Source: Neopararhizobium haloflavum (lineage in GTDB: Bacteria; Pseudomonadota; Alphaproteobacteria; Rhizobiales; Rhizobiaceae). From it: a stretch of DNA of 64,000 nt. Below the pieces are notes generated by a model. That model ran no database searches, had not been told where the DNA came from, and was given only the letters and a program-made list of their open reading frames with translations. Position numbers and translations under genes: made by a program. Below are positions 54,231 through 64,000 of the stretch, one piece after another. Positions within the stretch are counted from its first letter, which is position 1. Every line of letters begins with the position of its first letter. The stretch spans positions 186,001-250,000 of the forward strand of contig NZ_NWUC01000004.1 in NCBI RefSeq assembly GCF_002750855.1. Direction: 5' to 3'.

Positions 54231-54974
54231 TCATCGTGGCTGCTTGGCAAAGCCCTTGCCCAGGATTTCGCCCGTGGGCCGGCCCGTCGGCGAGCCGCCA
54301 TCCTGTTCGATCGTGATCTCATAGAGCTGATCGGCCTGTGGAGCGGGCAGTTGCGGCCCATCGTCCAGGATCATCGTCTCCGGTTCCTCGATCAGCCCGA
54401 GCGAGACGGGGCCCGTCTCCTCGTCAGGCAAGGTCCAGAGCTGCATCGTCTGCCCAGCCGGCACGGTCACATCCACAAGAGGCGTTACCCGTGTGCTGCG
54501 GTCGCCGAAATCCTCGACGATGACCAAGGGTTCGCCCGCCTCATCGACAAGAACGGCGATGACGGCTGCGGAAGGCGTTGTTGATGGCATGCGCAACAAT
54601 CCGACAGCCAGGACCAGCGAAGCTGCTATGCCGGCCAACGCCGCCCACCGCCAGCGCCGAACCGCGTTGTCGTTCGCCGCAGTCACGGTTCTTGCGCCGC
54701 TCGCGCTGGGCAAGGGCGGCCCGTCATCGACGCGCTCAGCCGCCGCCGTCTCGATGTTTTCCCAAAGATGCGGCGACGGCGTCACCGGCTCGGCCGTCAG
54801 GTCCAGCTCGTGGAACCTGTCGCGCGCATTATCCACGGCCCGGCGCAAATCATCATCGTGCAAAAGGGCATCTTCGACCTGCGCACGTTCCTGCGCGTCG
54901 AGAAGGCCAAGAGCATACTCATCAGCCAGTTCCAACAAGTTTTGCCCGTCCATGGGGGTGGTGGTGCTGGTCAT
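54231..54974 (-). CDS. Anti-sigma factor, RskA-type
   Basis: 247 residues. A cytoplasmic anti-sigma domain (about 1-75) is followed by one transmembrane helix ('WRWAALAGIAASLVLAVGLL') and an extracytoplasmic anti-sigma-K domain ('VTVPAGQTMQLWTLPDEETG'). There is no clear zinc His-x3-Cys-x2-Cys motif. It should bind the ECF sigma factor encoded just upstream, whose stop codon overlaps the ATG (ATGA). GGGAG precedes this start; a GTG nine bases upstream is an alternative. Confidence 0.88.
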   Translation of the reverse strand: MTSTTTPMDGQNLLELADEYALGLLDAQERAQVEDALLHDDDLRRAVDNARDRFHELDLTAEPVTPSPHLWENIETAAAERVDDGPPLPSASGARTVTAANDNAVRRWRWAALAGIAASLVLAVGLLRMPSTTPSAAVIAVLVDEAGEPLVIVEDFGDRSTRVTPLVDVTVPAGQTMQLWTLPDEETGPVSLGLIEEPETMILDDGPQLPAPQADQLYEITIEQDGGSPTGRPTGEILGKGFAKQPR

Positions 54975-55549
54975 CCCATGCACTCCCGCAATGCCGAAAG
55001 TCCTCGGCGAACCCAGGCTTTCGCCGTGCCGAGCGGCACGTTCATTCTTCCGGCGATCTCGCCATGGGTATAGCCGGACATATAGGCCATCAAGAGACTT
55101 CGCCGCTTGGCCTCATCCAATTGCTGAAGGCACTGCCTCAGGCGGCTCGTTGCGTCCAGTCGGTCCAGGACCCGGTCGTCGTGGAGATTGGCCGTCTCGC
55201 TCAAGCGCGTCAGATCCGCTTCGTCAGCCAGATCCTCGCGCCGCCCATCGCGCAGTACGTTCAATGCACGGTTGCGAACGACCGCATAAATCCAGCCGCG
55301 CGCCGATCCGCGATCGGCGGAGTATTGATCGGCCTTTCGCCATATCTGGATAAAGGCATCCTGAACGACTTCTTCAGCGACATCGCGGCGGCGCAGGATC
55401 CGCTCGGCGACTGCGATCAGGCGCCCTGCTTCGGCTTCGAACAGTGCCTTCAGCGCCGCACGATCCCCATTTGCACAGCGCGAAAGCGCCTCCGCATGAT
55501 CCAGCATCAATTCACCATCCAGAGGTCGAGTTGCTTCGCGGCACAGCAT
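54971..55549 (-). CDS. ECF-type RNA polymerase sigma factor
   Basis: 192 residues from ATG 55549, which has GAGG eight bases upstream; starts at 55579, 55582 and 55507 are also possible. Region 2 reads 'VAEEVVQDAFIQIWRKADQY' and region 4 'MSGYTHGEIAGRMNVPLGTA' then KAWVRRGL. The pairing with an RskA-type anti-sigma factor suggests the SigK-like group, so it probably responds to an envelope or oxidative signal. The divergent DUF4394 gene is its likely target. Confidence 0.88.
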   Translation of the reverse strand: MLCREATRPLDGELMLDHAEALSRCANGDRAALKALFEAEAGRLIAVAERILRRRDVAEEVVQDAFIQIWRKADQYSADRGSARGWIYAVVRNRALNVLRDGRREDLADEADLTRLSETANLHDDRVLDRLDATSRLRQCLQQLDEAKRRSLLMAYMSGYTHGEIAGRMNVPLGTAKAWVRRGLSALRECMG

Positions 55550-55709
55550 CGATGCCACCTCTCGGTTCAGTTGGCACATCACATGCGGTCCCGTCCAGCA
55601 TCACCGTGGAGATGCGCGCGACGATCCGCCGTTCCGGCAGTGCCGTTGCCAGGAATACACAAGGCTCACCGGTGTGGACGCAGTCGGAGAATTTTTTTTG
55701 CAAAGGGTG

Positions 55710-56631: not shown

Positions 56632-57513
56632 TCAAGCCTCTATCGAAATATCCAGACCAATATCGAGGGTCGGCGCCGCCATCGTGATCTTCGATGTCGA
56701 GATATAGTCGACACCCGTCTCGGCAATAGCCCGCACCGTGTCGAAATCGACATTCCCCGAGGCTTCCAGTCGGCAGAATGAACCCGCATCGCGGTTCATT
56801 TGCACCGCTTTGCCAAGGCTTTGCGTCGACATGTTGTCAAGAAGAATCACGTCGGGCTTTGCCGCAAGCGCCTCTCCGAGTTGGTCGAGTGTATCGACCT
56901 CGACCTCCACCGCCACCAGATGTCCGGCTGCCGCCCGCGCCTTTTCGATCGCTCTGGCGACGCCCCCGGCTATGGCGATGTGGTTGTCCTTGATCAGGAT
57001 CGCATCGTCGAGTCCGAAGCGGTGGTTGGATCCGCCGCCAATGCGCACAGCGTATTTCTGAAACACCCGCATGCCGGGTATGGTCTTGCGGGTGCAGCAA
57101 ATCCTTGCACCGGTTCCTGCAATCTGTGCGGCGAAACGCGCGGTATGACTGGCAACACCGGACAGATGCATAAGGTAATTCAGCGCGGTCCGCTCGGCTG
57201 AAAGGATTGCCTGCGCCGGACCGGCGACGCGCGCCAGTTCTGCGCCTGGTGCAAGTATCTTGCCATCGCCAAAGGCGCTCTCGATCCTGATCGTCGGATC
57301 CATCAACTGAAACGCCATCCGCGCCATCGGCATGCCGCAAAGAAAGCCGTCCTGCCGGCTTACGATGCGGGCGGTGGCTTGCGCGCCGGGGTCGATCGTC
57401 GCTGCCGATGTGATGTCGCCGGCCCGGCCGAGATCTTCCAGCAAGGCTGCACGCACGGCCCCCTCGACCATGATCGACGGCAATTGGGGAAGCGGAGGTC
57501 TGTCGGTCATCAT
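56632..57513 (-). CDS. nadC: Nicotinate-nucleotide pyrophosphorylase (carboxylating)
   Basis: 293 residues. It converts quinolinate and PRPP to nicotinate mononucleotide, the last step of the de novo branch. 'AALLEDLGRAGDITSAAT', 'TRKTIPGMRVFQKYAVRIGG' and 'HRFGLDDAILIKDNH' are family signatures with the quinolinate-binding Arg, His and Lys residues. It starts three bases after nadB; ATG 57510 has AGGA at better spacing than ATG 57513. Confidence 0.95.
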   Translation of the reverse strand: MMTDRPPLPQLPSIMVEGAVRAALLEDLGRAGDITSAATIDPGAQATARIVSRQDGFLCGMPMARMAFQLMDPTIRIESAFGDGKILAPGAELARVAGPAQAILSAERTALNYLMHLSGVASHTARFAAQIAGTGARICCTRKTIPGMRVFQKYAVRIGGGSNHRFGLDDAILIKDNHIAIAGGVARAIEKARAAAGHLVAVEVEVDTLDQLGEALAAKPDVILLDNMSTQSLGKAVQMNRDAGSFCRLEASGNVDFDTVRAIAETGVDYISTSKITMAAPTLDIGLDISIEA

Positions 57514-57516
57514 GTC

Positions 57517-59103
57517 CTATCCAGCGATGTCGCGAATGACCGCGTCCGCATCTTGAAGCGTGAGGTAGCTACGGCTCGGGCGGCCAGGCGCCGTCTCGGG
57601 AAAATCGGATCGGTAGTGGCTGCCCCGGCTTTCTTCCCGCTTCAGCGCAGCGACGGCGATCAGCTTGGCGGTTGCCACGATGTTGGCGAAGCGAAGCCGG
57701 TTGCCGGCGGCCTGGAGTTCGGCGATTTCGCGGATGGCCGCGACAAGCGCCCCACGCTCGCGAACGACGCCGACCTTGTCGGACATGATGGCACGCAGGC
57801 GCTTCAGCGGCGGGCTGTCCTCGATTGTGAAGACATCGTCACTCTCCTCCGACAACCCACCCCAATCGTTGAGCTTCGGCGTCGGCAGCAGGCCCTGGAT
57901 GTCCTCGGCGATCCTGGCCGCAAAGACGACTGCCTCGAGCAGGGAATTGGAGGCGAGCCGGTTGGCGCCGTGCGCGCCCGTCGAGGTGACCTCGCCGGCC
58001 GCCCACAACCCGTCGAGCGACGTCCTGCCCTGCGCGTCCGTCAGGATGCCGCCCATGTGGTAATGGACGGCGGGAACCACGGGAATGGGATCGTGGACGG
58101 GGTCGATGCCCGCTTCCTTGCAATAGCCGTAGACCGTGGGAAAAATCTCCGGAAAGCGAGCGCCAACCGCCCGTGTGCAGTCGAGAAAAGCGCCCTTGCC
58201 CGATTGCACCTGACGGAAAATTCCGCGTGCCACGATATCGCGCGGTGCAAGCTCACCATCTGGATGAAGGTCGAGCATGAAACGATGGCCATCGCGATCG
58301 ACAAGCGTTGCACCATCACCTCGCAGCGCCTCGGTCGCCAGCGGCGCGGGGTCACGTCCGACGTCGATGGCTGTCGGATGAAATTGCACGAATTCCGCAT
58401 CGGCGATCACCGCGCCGGCGCGTGCGGCCATGCCCATGCCGCCCCCCCTCGCCTCGAATGGGTTCGTCGTCACTCTGTAAAGGTGGCCGATGCCGCCCGT
58501 GCAAAGAACGACCGCGCGGGCCGGAAAGGTGACGCGCTGGGTGGCACGACCGGCATCCGGACGTGCCACGACGCCTGCGATGTAGCGCCCCTCCGACACC
58601 AGATCCTCAACGACGTAGCCTTCCATGACGCGAATGGACGGCGTTTGGCGCACTGCCGCGATAAGGGCTTCCATGATCGCGCGGCCCGCCATGTCGCCAC
58701 GTACCCGGACCACGCGCCGCGTCGAGTGGGCCGCTTCACGGGAGAGCGCGAGCCGCCCTTCCAGATCGCGATCGAAGGGCACGCCATAGGCCAGCAGGTC
58801 GTCGATCCGCGCCGGGCCTTCCTCCACCATCATGCGTGCGATGCGTTCGTCGACAAGGCCGGCGCCGGCAGCCAACGTGTCTGAGAGATGGCTTTCGGCC
58901 GTGTCGCCCTCGCTCACCGCCGCCGCTATGCCGCCTTGCGCCCAGGCAGATGAGGCGCCCTGACCGATCGGCGCAGCCGCGAGAACGGTAACGGGCCTCG
59001 GGCTCAGCTTCAGCGCGCAGAAAAGCCCTGCCAACCCGCCGCCGACGATGACGACGTCGTCAATGCCCGTCCAGGATACCGGCGGAAACGTGCTGGAATT
59101 CAT
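57517..59103 (-). CDS. nadB: L-aspartate oxidase
   Basis: 528 residues, FAD-dependent. It oxidises L-aspartate to iminoaspartate for NadA. The dinucleotide fold '[17 protein letters not shown]' and the flavin-contact motif '[12 protein letters not shown]' are clear, with '[17 protein letters not shown]' near residue 370. GAGGA lies seven bases before the ATG at 59103; 11 further codons are open upstream. It is separated from nadA by an opposite-strand LysM gene. Confidence 0.95.
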
Positions 59104-59194
59104 TGCCTCATCCTCGGCCGCTGGTCGGCCCCACATGGAAAATCGCCAGTGCCGGCGCTAGATTGCATGAAAGGACAGCAACGATGCCAACACA

Positions 59195-59737
59195 ATGGAC
59201 CAAGCCATGCCCCACGGCACACAACGCCGCATATTCCCGAGCTTGACGATCGCAGGGGGCGCCATCGTCGCGTCGCTGCTTCTTGCCAGCGGCGTCGAAC
59301 CGGCCGGCGCGCAATGCACCTCGCGATTGCAGACGGGTGTCGGATCGAGCGCCGTGGCCCTTGCCCAACGCTGCGGCACCACCGTTGGCGATCTTCGCCG
59401 TGCCAATCCGGGCCGCGACCTCGACAGGCCGGGACTGCTCAACATTCCCGGAGGCAGGACCTCCGCTGTTCCGAACACGCTCAACAACGAGATCGCGCCG
59501 CGCCCGCCACGCATTCGTGCCACACGGCAAAAGCCGATCGTCAGCCAGGGCGGTCGTCCGGCGCCGACCATGCGGCAGGAGACCGGGGGCGCTCTTTACC
59601 GCATCCAGCGCGGCGACACGCTCGGCGCGATCGCACGCTCGCGCGGCCTTGCCCTGCAATCGCTGCTCCAGGCCAACCCCGGCGTCGTGCCCAATCGTCT
59701 GTCGGTCGGACAGACAATTCGCGTTCCGGCTAGCTGA
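59195..59737 (+). CDS. Exported LysM-domain protein inserted between nadA and nadB
   Basis: 180 residues. A signal peptide (cleavage near AGAQC) is followed by two LysM-like segments: a degenerate one around 'ALAQRCGTTVGDLRRANPG' and a good one, 'YRIQRGDTLGAIARSRGL' to 'LSVGQTIRVPAS'. The Cys after the signal and one in the first LysM could pair. It likely binds peptidoglycan in the periplasm. Starts at 59195 and 59207 are possible. It lies head-on to the nad genes. Confidence 0.82.
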   Translation: MDQAMPHGTQRRIFPSLTIAGGAIVASLLLASGVEPAGAQCTSRLQTGVGSSAVALAQRCGTTVGDLRRANPGRDLDRPGLLNIPGGRTSAVPNTLNNEIAPRPPRIRATRQKPIVSQGGRPAPTMRQETGGALYRIQRGDTLGAIARSRGLALQSLLQANPGVVPNRLSVGQTIRVPAS

Positions 59738-59818
59738 GGCGAAAGACCGGCCGCCCCTGGCGACGCGCGCGCCGCCGGACCTTGGCCCAAAAAGGATCGA
59801 GAGGGGGCGCAACGGCCG

Positions 59819-60895
59819 CTACTGCGACAGGGCGACCATGCGCTCGACGGCAAGCCGGGCGCGCGATGCAATGGCTGGATCGACAAGCACTTCTTCGCGC
59901 ATTTCCAAGAGGCTATCCAGGATCTTGGGCAATGTGATGCGCTTCATGTGCGGACACAGGTTGCAGGGCTTCACAAAGTCGACCTCAGGAACCTCGGACT
60001 GGATGTTGGACGCCATCGAGCATTCGGTGACAAGCAGCGCGCGCGCCGGCTTTTTATCCTTGACGTAGTTGATCATTCCCGAAGTGGAGCCGGCATAGTC
60101 CGCGACCGCGATGACGTCAGGATGGCATTCGGGATGAGCGATGATCTCAATCGATGGATCGGCTTCGCGGTAGGCGTTCAGTTCCTCGGCGGTGAAGCGC
60201 TCGTGGACTTCGCAGTGCCCTTTCCAGGTCAGGATGGTCTTTTTGGTCTGCTTGGCAACGTTGAGCGCCAGGTACTCATCGGGAATGCAGAGCACCGTAT
60301 CGGAAGCGAGGCTTTCAACGACTGCGACGGCGTTCGATGAGGTGCAGCAGATATCCGTCTCTGCCTTCACGTCGGCCGATGTGTTGACATAGGTGACGAC
60401 CGGAACGCCGGGATAGCGCTCACGCAGCAGACGGACATCGGCGCCAGTGATCGATTCGGAAAGCGAGCAACCGGCACGCATGTCCGGGATCAGCACGGTT
60501 TTCTCGGGGTTGAGAAGCTTGGAGGTCTCCGCCATGAAATGAACGCCGCACTGGACGATGATCTCGGCATCAACCTTGGTCGCCTCCCGGGCAAGCTGAA
60601 GCGAGTCGCCGACGATGTCGGCAACGCAGTGGAAAATTTCCGGCGTCTGGTAATTGTGCGCCAAAATGACAGCGCCACGCTCGGCCTTCAACCGATTGAT
60701 CGCATGAATGTAGGGCGCATGGACCGGCCATTCTATCGCGGGGATGTGGTGCTTCACGCGTTCGTAAAGATGCGCCGTCTCGCGGGCCACCGCCGGCGTA
60801 TAGGACAGATCAGGACGGCTTTTCACGCCGTATCGCTCTGCCGCGTTGCGTGCTGAGTTCACTTCATTGTTGGAAGCAATTGCCGTCGCGACCAT
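59819..60895 (-). CDS. nadA: Quinolinate synthase
   Basis: 358 residues. It condenses iminoaspartate with dihydroxyacetone phosphate to quinolinate, using a [4Fe-4S] cluster. The three cluster cysteines are expected in '[12 protein letters not shown]', 'DICCTSSNA' and 'CNLCPHMKR'. '[13 protein letters not shown]' and '[11 protein letters not shown]' are further signatures. GGGAGA lies about six bases before the ATG. A palindrome lies 29-43 bases upstream of the start. Confidence 0.95.
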
Positions 60896-62413: not shown

Positions 62414-63613
62414 TCAGCCTTTTTGCTGCGCCAGGCCTTCTGCCAGGAAGGTCTGCAGCAGCGCGCCGACATCCGCCTCCACGACCTCCTCGGGAACGTC
62501 GGCAAAGGCGCCTGCGACGATTGTGCGAATGGTCGCCTCATCCATATCATTCTCAAGCAGGTTCCACAGGCCGAGGCCCAAGGTGTTGAGATGATGGATC
62601 TTGTCATTTCGCTGGTCGACGAGAAAGGCGCTGTCGCCGACCACGCGGACCGCGACCTCGTCGACACGCCGATATACTGGCATATCCGTTGCAGGCGTCG
62701 GCCAATCGAAACCGGACGCCGATGCCGATTGCCGGCGCGGATCACTCCGGGCCAAAATCTCGGTCGCTGGCCAGGTGGAGAAGCCTTCCTCCAGCCGTGC
62801 TTGCGCATCCGATATGTCTGAATAGACCAGCCGATAGACGGCAAGATGTGCCAGCAGGTCCAGATAGGCATCGAGCATGCACTGCGCCGGAACCTCGCTC
62901 GTGTCCTGCACAAGCAACCGCGTCAACCCATCTTCAAGAGCCACAGGTTCGAGACGGGCCGCGCATGGCTGGTCGGACCGTTCCAGCAGAACGATGGCAC
63001 CGATCGACGCTTTCTCTCCATGCTGGACGCTCCGTCCCTTCGTTGCCGAGAGAAACGCATAGTAGCCATCAGTGACCTCGGTATGGGATTCGACATACCG
63101 CTTCAGCCGCTCAGGCGCGCCATCCGGCAACGGCAATCGGATACGCGGCAGACAGCCTGACGCCACGCCATCTCCAGTTTTCAGATCGATCGGCAGAAGA
63201 TCATCGCTGAACACCCGCCGACCATCAGCGGCACACGCGCTGACCAGTGTCGATTTGCCGGCGCGATTCGTCGCGGGAAAGACGACCAGGCGGCCGCCGA
63301 ACTCTACCGCTGCCGCATGCAGATTGCCGATTGATTGCACGTTGCGGACAAAAGCGGCCATCAATTCCACGATGATCGTGCAGATCGCGCTCGTCGTGCT
63401 CGGCTCACTTCGGGTCTCGCCGGACGGTTGGCGCCGAACGATCACATGGTCCGGGGTCCCTGAAACGGTGAGGAACGGTTGATCGAAGGGCATGTCGGCG
63501 GGATCAACCTGCGGCCAGCCTACCAGGACGGTGCGCAAGTCATCGGCAATGCGGCTGACATCGGGATCGATGCCGATGGGAGCCGGCAATCCGCGAAAGC
63601 AACAAAGTTGCAT
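62414..63613 (-). CDS. HprK-like kinase fused to a C-terminal PqqD domain
   Basis: 399 residues. The central part (about 95-290) is like HPr kinase: 'NLHAAAVEFGGRLVVFPATN' runs into the P-loop 'ATNRAGKST' (residues 114-122), and 'RRVFSDDLLPID' supplies the acidic pair. The C-terminal part (about 310-395) is a PqqD/RRE-like domain: 'VRVVGDSAFLVDQRNDKIHH' then LNTLGLGLWNLLEN. PqqD domains bind leader peptides in RiPP pathways; HprK homologues phosphorylate some lasso peptides. The start 63613 has AAGGA ten bases upstream. It follows the glycine-rich gene on the same strand. Confidence 0.82.
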   Translation of the reverse strand: MQLCCFRGLPAPIGIDPDVSRIADDLRTVLVGWPQVDPADMPFDQPFLTVSGTPDHVIVRRQPSGETRSEPSTTSAICTIIVELMAAFVRNVQSIGNLHAAAVEFGGRLVVFPATNRAGKSTLVSACAADGRRVFSDDLLPIDLKTGDGVASGCLPRIRLPLPDGAPERLKRYVESHTEVTDGYYAFLSATKGRSVQHGEKASIGAIVLLERSDQPCAARLEPVALEDGLTRLLVQDTSEVPAQCMLDAYLDLLAHLAVYRLVYSDISDAQARLEEGFSTWPATEILARSDPRRQSASASGFDWPTPATDMPVYRRVDEVAVRVVGDSAFLVDQRNDKIHHLNTLGLGLWNLLENDMDEATIRTIVAGAFADVPEEVVEADVGALLQTFLAEGLAQQKG

Positions 63614-63651
63614 CGTTCCGTTGTCCTTCCGATCTCGTCCCCAAGTCATGC

Positions 63652-63678
63652 GGGGAGCGCCGCACAGCCGCGCTCCCC
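63652..63678. repeat. Strong hairpin between the glycine-rich gene and the kinase gene
   Basis: Perfect 9-bp stem GGGGAGCGC and GCGCTCCCC with a nine-base loop, 26 bases downstream of the glycine-rich stop (minus strand). No T-tract follows in the minus direction. Such hairpins often sit behind precursor-peptide genes and reduce readthrough into the processing genes, so that the peptide is made in excess. That role is inferred. Confidence 0.55.
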
Positions 63679-63703
63679 TTGCCGTTACATGCTCCGTCTT
63701 TGA

Positions 63704-64000
63704 TCAGCGGCGCAATACGTCGCCCATGGCGTTGCCCATGCTGCGGCCGAAGCTGCCGAGCGTCTGTGGGCCGCGTCCACCGGAGCCGCCGCCCCAGCCG
63801 CCTCGCCCGCCCGAACCGCGGTTGCCGCCGCCGAAACCGCCACGTCCGCCCGAGCCGCCATTCGAGCCGCCGCCGCCGAAACCGCCGCGTCCACCAGAAC
63901 CGCCGTTCGAGCCGCCGCCACCGAAGCCGCCGCCATTGGAGCCACCGCCGCCAAAACCGCCGCCATTCGAACCGCCGCCGCCGAAGCCGCCAGAGCCGCC
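63704..64000 (-). CDS. Glycine-rich repeat protein, N-terminus outside the window
   Basis: The last 98 residues are visible; the start lies beyond the window. Residues 1-77 are built from Gly-rich units: three of ten residues (GGGGSNGGGF type), then two of 15 residues (GGGGSNGGSGGRGGF type), then variants with RGG and a single Trp. The final 21 residues, from PQTLGSFGRSMG to the C-terminus, are non-repetitive. No Cys or Thr occurs within the repeats. It may be a RiPP-like precursor, a secreted structural protein or an RGG-type protein. The adjacent HprK-PqqD gene favours a modified substrate. Confidence 0.6.
   Translation of the reverse strand, partial: GGSGGFGGGGSNGGGFGGGGSNGGGFGGGGSNGGSGGRGGFGGGGSNGGSGGRGGFGGGNRGSGGRGGWGGGSGGRGPQTLGSFGRSMGNAMGDVLRR
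63770..64000. repeat. In-frame Gly-codon-rich repeats
   Basis: About 230 bases of degenerate 30- and 45-base direct repeats encode the Gly/Ser/Asn/Phe/Arg units. The arms are nearly identical at the DNA level apart from third-base changes, so the array can expand or shrink by slippage or recombination and may vary between strains. Codon use is biased to GGC. Confidence 0.75.

Follow-up and report, generated by a model that had tools for sequence, protein, structure and literature searches.

Genes at the locus

The window analysed here is a 64,000-nucleotide stretch of Neopararhizobium haloflavum (Pseudomonadota; Alphaproteobacteria; Rhizobiales; contig NZ_NWUC01000004.1, positions 186,001 to 250,000), and its last part carries two genes on the minus strand, an open reading frame (ORF) that joins a PEPCK/HprK-type kinase to a C-terminal PqqD-like domain, and a small partner gene whose ORF lies 54 bp upstream. 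An earlier note on the letters of the window had described a fused HprK-like kinase and PqqD domain directly downstream of a Gly/Ser/Asn/Arg repeat protein on the same strand, with the N-terminus of the latter beyond the window edge. Both genes were found as described, and the extended sequence gave the full partner gene of 167 codons (L003:4704-5207, minus strand), starting 207 bases past the edge. Loci, genomes and contigs are designated below by L, G and C numbers, and RRE denotes a recognition element of ribosomally synthesised and post-translationally modified peptides (RiPPs). The features are as follows.

62414..63649, minus strand: PEPCK/HprK-type kinase with C-terminal RRE (PqqD-like) domain, 411 amino acids (predicted structure, Pfam, NCBIfam)
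62771..63610, minus strand: kinase domain, residues 14-293, predicted PEPCK/HprK fold (AlphaFold2 model)
63248..63274, minus strand: P-loop ATNRAGKST, residues 126-134; G131, K132 and T134 invariant in 19/19
63200..63205, minus strand: Asp pair D149-D150 (SDD), invariant in 19/19
62417..62677, minus strand: RRE domain, residues 325-411; best solved relatives TbiB1 (lasso RRE) and LppB (LPP RRE)
62585..62587, minus strand: N355, aligned with LppB N33; 17/19
62471..62473, minus strand: D393, aligned with LppB D70; 19/19
63704..64000, minus strand: Gly/Ser/Asn/Arg repeat tail of the partner, last 98 codons within the window; the gene runs 207 bases beyond, to contig position 250207

The real start of the kinase-RRE ORF may be codon 13. 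The predicted structure of the 411-amino-acid protein (predicted local distance difference test score, pLDDT, 89; predicted template modelling score, pTM, 0.85) places the kinase part in the PEPCK/HprK fold, and residues H111, K132, D149 and D150 are invariant in the 19 aligned proteins. HprK itself was found by Foldseek (E 2.9e-3) and was absent from the 50 VIA-align matches listed, which comprised PEPCK and TbiB1 only.

A Pfam PqqD match (PF05402, E 5.8e-8) covers residues 342-406. Judged by these comparisons, the domain belongs to the RREs that grip peptides, as the earlier note had held, and stands nearest to lasso- and LPP-type RREs: LppB was its second-best match in the PDB, and the lasso and LPP RREs matched it better than PqqD proper. 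According to PMC13381572, LppB N33 holds the kink at Pro in the YxxP leader and D70 hydrogen-bonds its Tyr; these residue numbers were inferred from the residue spacing given there.

In its N-terminal region the partner reads ...SRRKMLGILGLTAAAAYTAPTLLTIRQARA|SGSGGGG, the bar marking the predicted A-x-A cleavage site. Within the hydrophobic stretch of this twin-arginine translocation (Tat)-like signal stands YTAPTL, which fits [Y/W]xxPx[L/V/I], the motif bound by lasso/LPP-type RREs. This conserved element was invisible to the earlier note because the N-terminus of the partner lay outside the window.

The common signal and its cargo

A signal model (A2) was built from 26 signals, in which RR, L, LG, Y and P are invariant. 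The tally of signal genes required RR and [YF]xxP, and every match of at least 30 bits contained both. YxxP was present in all 111 collected signal genes (which take in close relatives and the 26 model rows), with Tyr and never Trp, and in none of 30 ordinary Tat signals used as a control (of 180 matches to the curated Tat model, the 30 that were returned as loci). The residue two positions after Pro was L in 52 signals, M in 25, I in 16, V in 16 and F in 2, and A-x-A follows the YxxPx[VL] part. With its twin Arg, hydrophobic stretch and A-x-A, the element resembles a Tat signal, and the curated Tat model scored above its cut-off for G454, G311 and one signal on contig C10 of the window's own genome. 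By its sequence, the 'leader' of the partner is probably an export signal.

Behind this signal stand Gly-, Arg/Ser-, Asp/Ser- and Pro/Ser-rich tails, Arg/Ser/Lys tails, a PepSY-like partner (23.3 bits, slightly below the 24-bit Pfam cut-off) and subtilases. Gly-richness was therefore discarded as the defining trait of the partner, since the loci found through the kinase hold diverse cargo with only the signal in common; the glycine-richness that the earlier note had placed at the core of the pairing is incidental, and the constant part is the Tat-like signal with its RRE docking motif. Serine makes up on average 16% of the small tails versus 5.7% in neighbouring genes, typically stands at Y+14 to Y+19, and is often the first residue after the predicted cleavage site. 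Only this excess at +1 is informative, because at 16% Ser about two thirds of the tails would carry a Ser near the site by composition alone.

Linkage and co-occurrence

Genes in the fetched loci were called with a custom codon-usage script rather than a standard gene finder. In the order, the kinase was matched at E<=1e-3 in 24 of 297 genomes, and eight matches in seven genomes, two of them in the window's own, reached E<=1e-15. Seven of these eight adjoin a same-strand gene with the signal pattern, six upstream and one downstream (G016, L037); the kinase of G016 extends to the contig end and has three signal genes beside it. The eighth (G002) has an internal stop and no partner was found. 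Weak signal matches, such as those in G039 and G068, also occurred without a kinase. In the window's own genome the signal model found three strong places, all beside the two kinases, and a fourth match at the level of noise (12 bits). The second copy (contig C10, L035:7174-10014) consists of an S8 subtilase (E 1.8e-27), a small Gly/Arg-rich protein and a kinase-RRE fusion, and this gene set recurs on plasmids of Shinella and Paracoccus marcusii, where the kinase, annotated 'PqqD family protein', follows genes for an S8 peptidase and a 'hypothetical protein'.

A scan of named-genome contigs with the window protein alone gave no match; with three relatives it gave 36 loci, mostly Rhodobacterales by name and including Shinella yambaruensis and Mesorhizobium sp. 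YM1C-6-2. Three were set aside: L251, whose match falls within the first 434 bases next to a contig end, and the short weak matches L252 and L253 (Sulfurimonadaceae and a Bythopirellula metagenome-assembled genome). Of the 33 loci thus found by kinase alone, 31 have a same-strand signal gene no more than 2.1 kb upstream of the kinase; the remaining two lie at contig ends, where just 197 and 405 bp precede the kinase. These places hold 49 of the 51 signal matches in the 338,532 bases of named loci, 18 loci carrying two upstream signals. Kinase and RRE formed one ORF in 30/30 named loci checked; G037 and many further genomes of the class encode them separately.

Across 385 genomes of the class (signal E<=1e-7, kinase model E<=1e-20), both elements were present in 33, the signal only in 2 (G409, G668), the kinase only in 3 (G399, G481, G605) and neither in 347; without the 17 genomes that supplied model rows the counts were 16, 2, 3 and 347. 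At most four kinase candidates per genome were scored, so that weak kinases may be missed, and the exceptions were searched again with more. The match in G605 is to PqqD only, in a genome 79% complete. The signal gene lies directly upstream of the kinase in 19 of the 33 genomes (in G312 beside one of three kinases). In a forward test on 398 genomes of the phylum, five new genomes had a signal at E<=1e-7, and in all five, four of them outside the class, a kinase lay directly downstream (E<=2.1e-82).

The linked pair that the earlier note had pointed to is thus real, on the linkage in named loci, the co-occurrence in the class and the forward test. Sequence comparison suggests that the pairing is common to many Proteobacteria, with very different partner proteins.

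Proposed function and alternatives

The window protein is probably a leader-guided kinase for exported proteins. The RRE would grip Y-x-x-P-x-[L/V/I/M/F] within the hydrophobic segment of the neighbouring partner's Tat-like signal, a recognition well supported by the sequences of both sides. The tethered PEPCK/HprK-type kinase would then move phosphate from ATP to Ser, most likely to the first Ser residue or residues right after the signal and possibly to others in the Ser-rich tail. The marked protein would leave via Tat, and a general signal peptidase would cut the signal at A-x-A. A single short N-terminal tag would in this way order modification before export and could be placed on cargo as unrelated as repeat proteins, subtilases and a PepSY-like protein. 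The Tat route carries proteins matured in the cytoplasm. We infer both phosphorylation and Tat export, as well as the order 'modify, then export'. Phosphorylation of Ser residues spread through the repeat, as the earlier note had it, is possible; in the most similar system studied so far, a single Ser close to the cleavage site is phosphorylated (PMC13381572).

Several observations weigh against this proposal. The top structural match of the kinase fold is PEPCK rather than HprK. The window partner gave no family match at E<=1, the curated Tat signal model included, and that model fell below its cut-off for the signal of the second C10 gene and for G714. TatC was found in 40/40 genomes tested, a weak test, TatC being nearly universal here. 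No Ser occurs within 6 residues of the predicted site in 18 of 110 signals, and the composition effect described above would account for most near-site Ser. The co-occurrence counts ignore relatedness and so are not independent, and in the other 14 of the 33 class genomes signal and kinase are 25-119 kb apart (8) or on different contigs (6). With more candidates searched, no recognisable kinase was found in G409 (C62, L168) or G668 (C3, L167), and no signal in G399 or G481 despite their kinase.

The phosphate may be only a handle, with a nucleotidyl- or glycosyltransferase acting afterwards to complete the modification, a scheme already put forward for paeninodin-type and LPP clusters. Those clusters hold a nucleoside triphosphate (NTP) transferase, and in L041 a sister architecture, with PqqD first and the HprK-like kinase second, stands beside a PF14907 NTP_transf_5 gene; we consider this unlikely nonetheless, no such gene having been found among the ten neighbours scanned or in the named loci inspected through annotation or reading. 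The fusion might instead act as a signal-peptide chaperone or proofreading ATPase, analogous in logic to TorD/NarJ, in which the RRE would shield the signal until the P-loop domain, by binding or hydrolysing ATP, sets it free, and the cargo stays unmodified. The position of the docking motif within the hydrophobic part of the signal and the diversity of the cargo, subtilase included, would suit such a role. Its kinase residues are invariant, however, the tails are enriched in Ser, which often directly follows the cleavage site, and Ser kinase activity is what PMC13381572 describes for the characterised relatives in which an HprK-like domain goes with a YxxP-binding RRE; all this makes a chaperone quite improbable. 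That kinase and partner are accidental neighbours, for which only the few unpaired genomes speak, is refuted by linkage, co-occurrence and the forward test, and we give it practically no credence.

Should the leader-guided kinase be confirmed, signal peptides, usually regarded purely as export tickets, would here also recruit a modifying enzyme; RRE-guided chemistry would act on exported proteins of full size as well as on small RiPPs, and a defined route, modification followed by Tat export, would exist for extracytoplasmic phosphoproteins. Proteins annotated just 'PqqD family protein' would be supplied with substrates, and the motif RR..YxxPx[LVIM]..A-x-A is usable for finding further members. 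The broader idea that one transferable N-terminal tag, Tat signal and RRE docking leader at once, defines a general route of pre-export whole-protein phosphorylation in Proteobacteria, with lasso and LPP peptides as its small-peptide cousins, appears to us evenly balanced between true and false.

Surrounding genes

The ten nearby proteins scanned comprised NadA and MFS to one side of the pair; thioesterase, RecO, an Era-like GTPase, RNase III, ACPS and an S26 signal peptidase to the other; and LysM and DUF4394 proteins. The signal peptidase gene is some 3.8 kb from the pair, and the genes around it have housekeeping functions. None of the ten was a lasso macrolactam cyclase, B2 leader peptidase, pyrroloquinoline quinone (PQQ) gene product, MsbA-like exporter or NTP transferase. 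The earlier note had likewise seen no cyclase, and a lasso or PQQ cluster was rejected on the content of these ten neighbours.

Comparison with known systems

The enzyme pair and the motif are already known from lasso and LPP clusters. The LPP system of Bacillota (LppA/LppB/LppK/LppS), as set out in PMC13381572, likewise has an HprK-like kinase and a lasso-type RRE, a precursor with a conserved N-terminus (YxxPx[V/L]) and a highly variable C-terminus, no cyclase, conserved Asn and Asp fixing Pro and Tyr, and a Ser close to where the leader is cleaved (at Y+18 of the LPP motif). The present system probably works like LPP. It differs in having as leader a Tat-like signal that carries twin Arg and A-x-A, in the fusion of kinase and RRE seen in the window and the named loci checked, in substrates that include 400-amino-acid proteases and in its proteobacterial hosts. 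LPP, in the same source, has an MsbA-like exporter and an NTP transferase in the cluster and a dedicated SipW-like (archaeal-type) signal peptidase. Here neither exporter nor transferase is among the ten neighbours, which do include the S26 signal peptidase. Of the full LPP motif, YxxPxVLxHQxIxFETxxS in that source, only YxxPx[VL] is common to both. The system was not filed as LPP because the full leader motif and, among the ten neighbours, the exporter and transferase of the cluster were lacking.

Paeninodin-type lasso clusters (PqqD-like B1, HprK-like kinase, NTP transferase) share the enzyme pair and motif class, but they include a lasso cyclase, absent among the ten neighbours; the Tyr-type contact residues kept in the RRE here are absent from PbaB1 (9x90) in the alignment, and the signals here have Tyr instead of Trp. 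HprK_rel_A (TIGR04352) is the best NCBIfam match of the kinase part, yet at 41.2 bits against a cut-off of 200 the protein is a non-member. With PqqD of PQQ synthesis, the fold and PF05402 are in common. No description of the system was found in the literature searched, and as far as that literature shows, what is new is the use of an export signal as leader, the fusion of kinase and RRE, the occurrence in Proteobacteria and substrates that are whole proteins.

Related loci

Genes read from their translations as nadC, nadB and nadA (NadA of the window by Pfam) lie near the signal-kinase pair in the window (56632-60895) and in Gemmobacter tilapiae (L242:921-4384). A sigma-70 family factor (by Pfam), followed by a small gene, stands beside and divergent from an S8 gene of the system in L173:1900-3116, L222:1840-3041 and L242:6165-7431, the small gene of L173 matching zf-HC2 slightly below cut-off; a sigma/RskA-type pair lies at 54231-55582 of the window, about 7 kb from the kinase. 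In L037:318-3452 the PepSY-like partner adjoins an apparent response regulator and sensor kinase (named from reading), and this variant may feed a two-component system.

Loci L155-L158, L163, L166 and L167 hold short signal genes with a P-S-P-C type core (e.g. KVLPSPCPPPG) away from a kinase, several of them near HldE-like and MmcB-like genes (names from reading translations). A further group in which HprK and PqqD are neighbours (L096-L103, L105 and L108-L119 in part) has no signal gene directly upstream, and most of these genomes hold one elsewhere. The sister architecture occurs in L041:6733-9751, L042:8438-10725, L046:6274-8820, L047:6366-8808, L048:5892-8439 and L120:4076-6696, with PqqD as a separate gene in L120. 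The kinase is followed by the PF14907 gene in L041 and by similar-looking genes (by reading) in L046-L048. One to three short peptides are encoded alongside, with RR...[YW]xxP in L041, L042, L047 and L120 and a looser form in L046 and L048, and some of them stop exactly at A-x-A or one Ser beyond.
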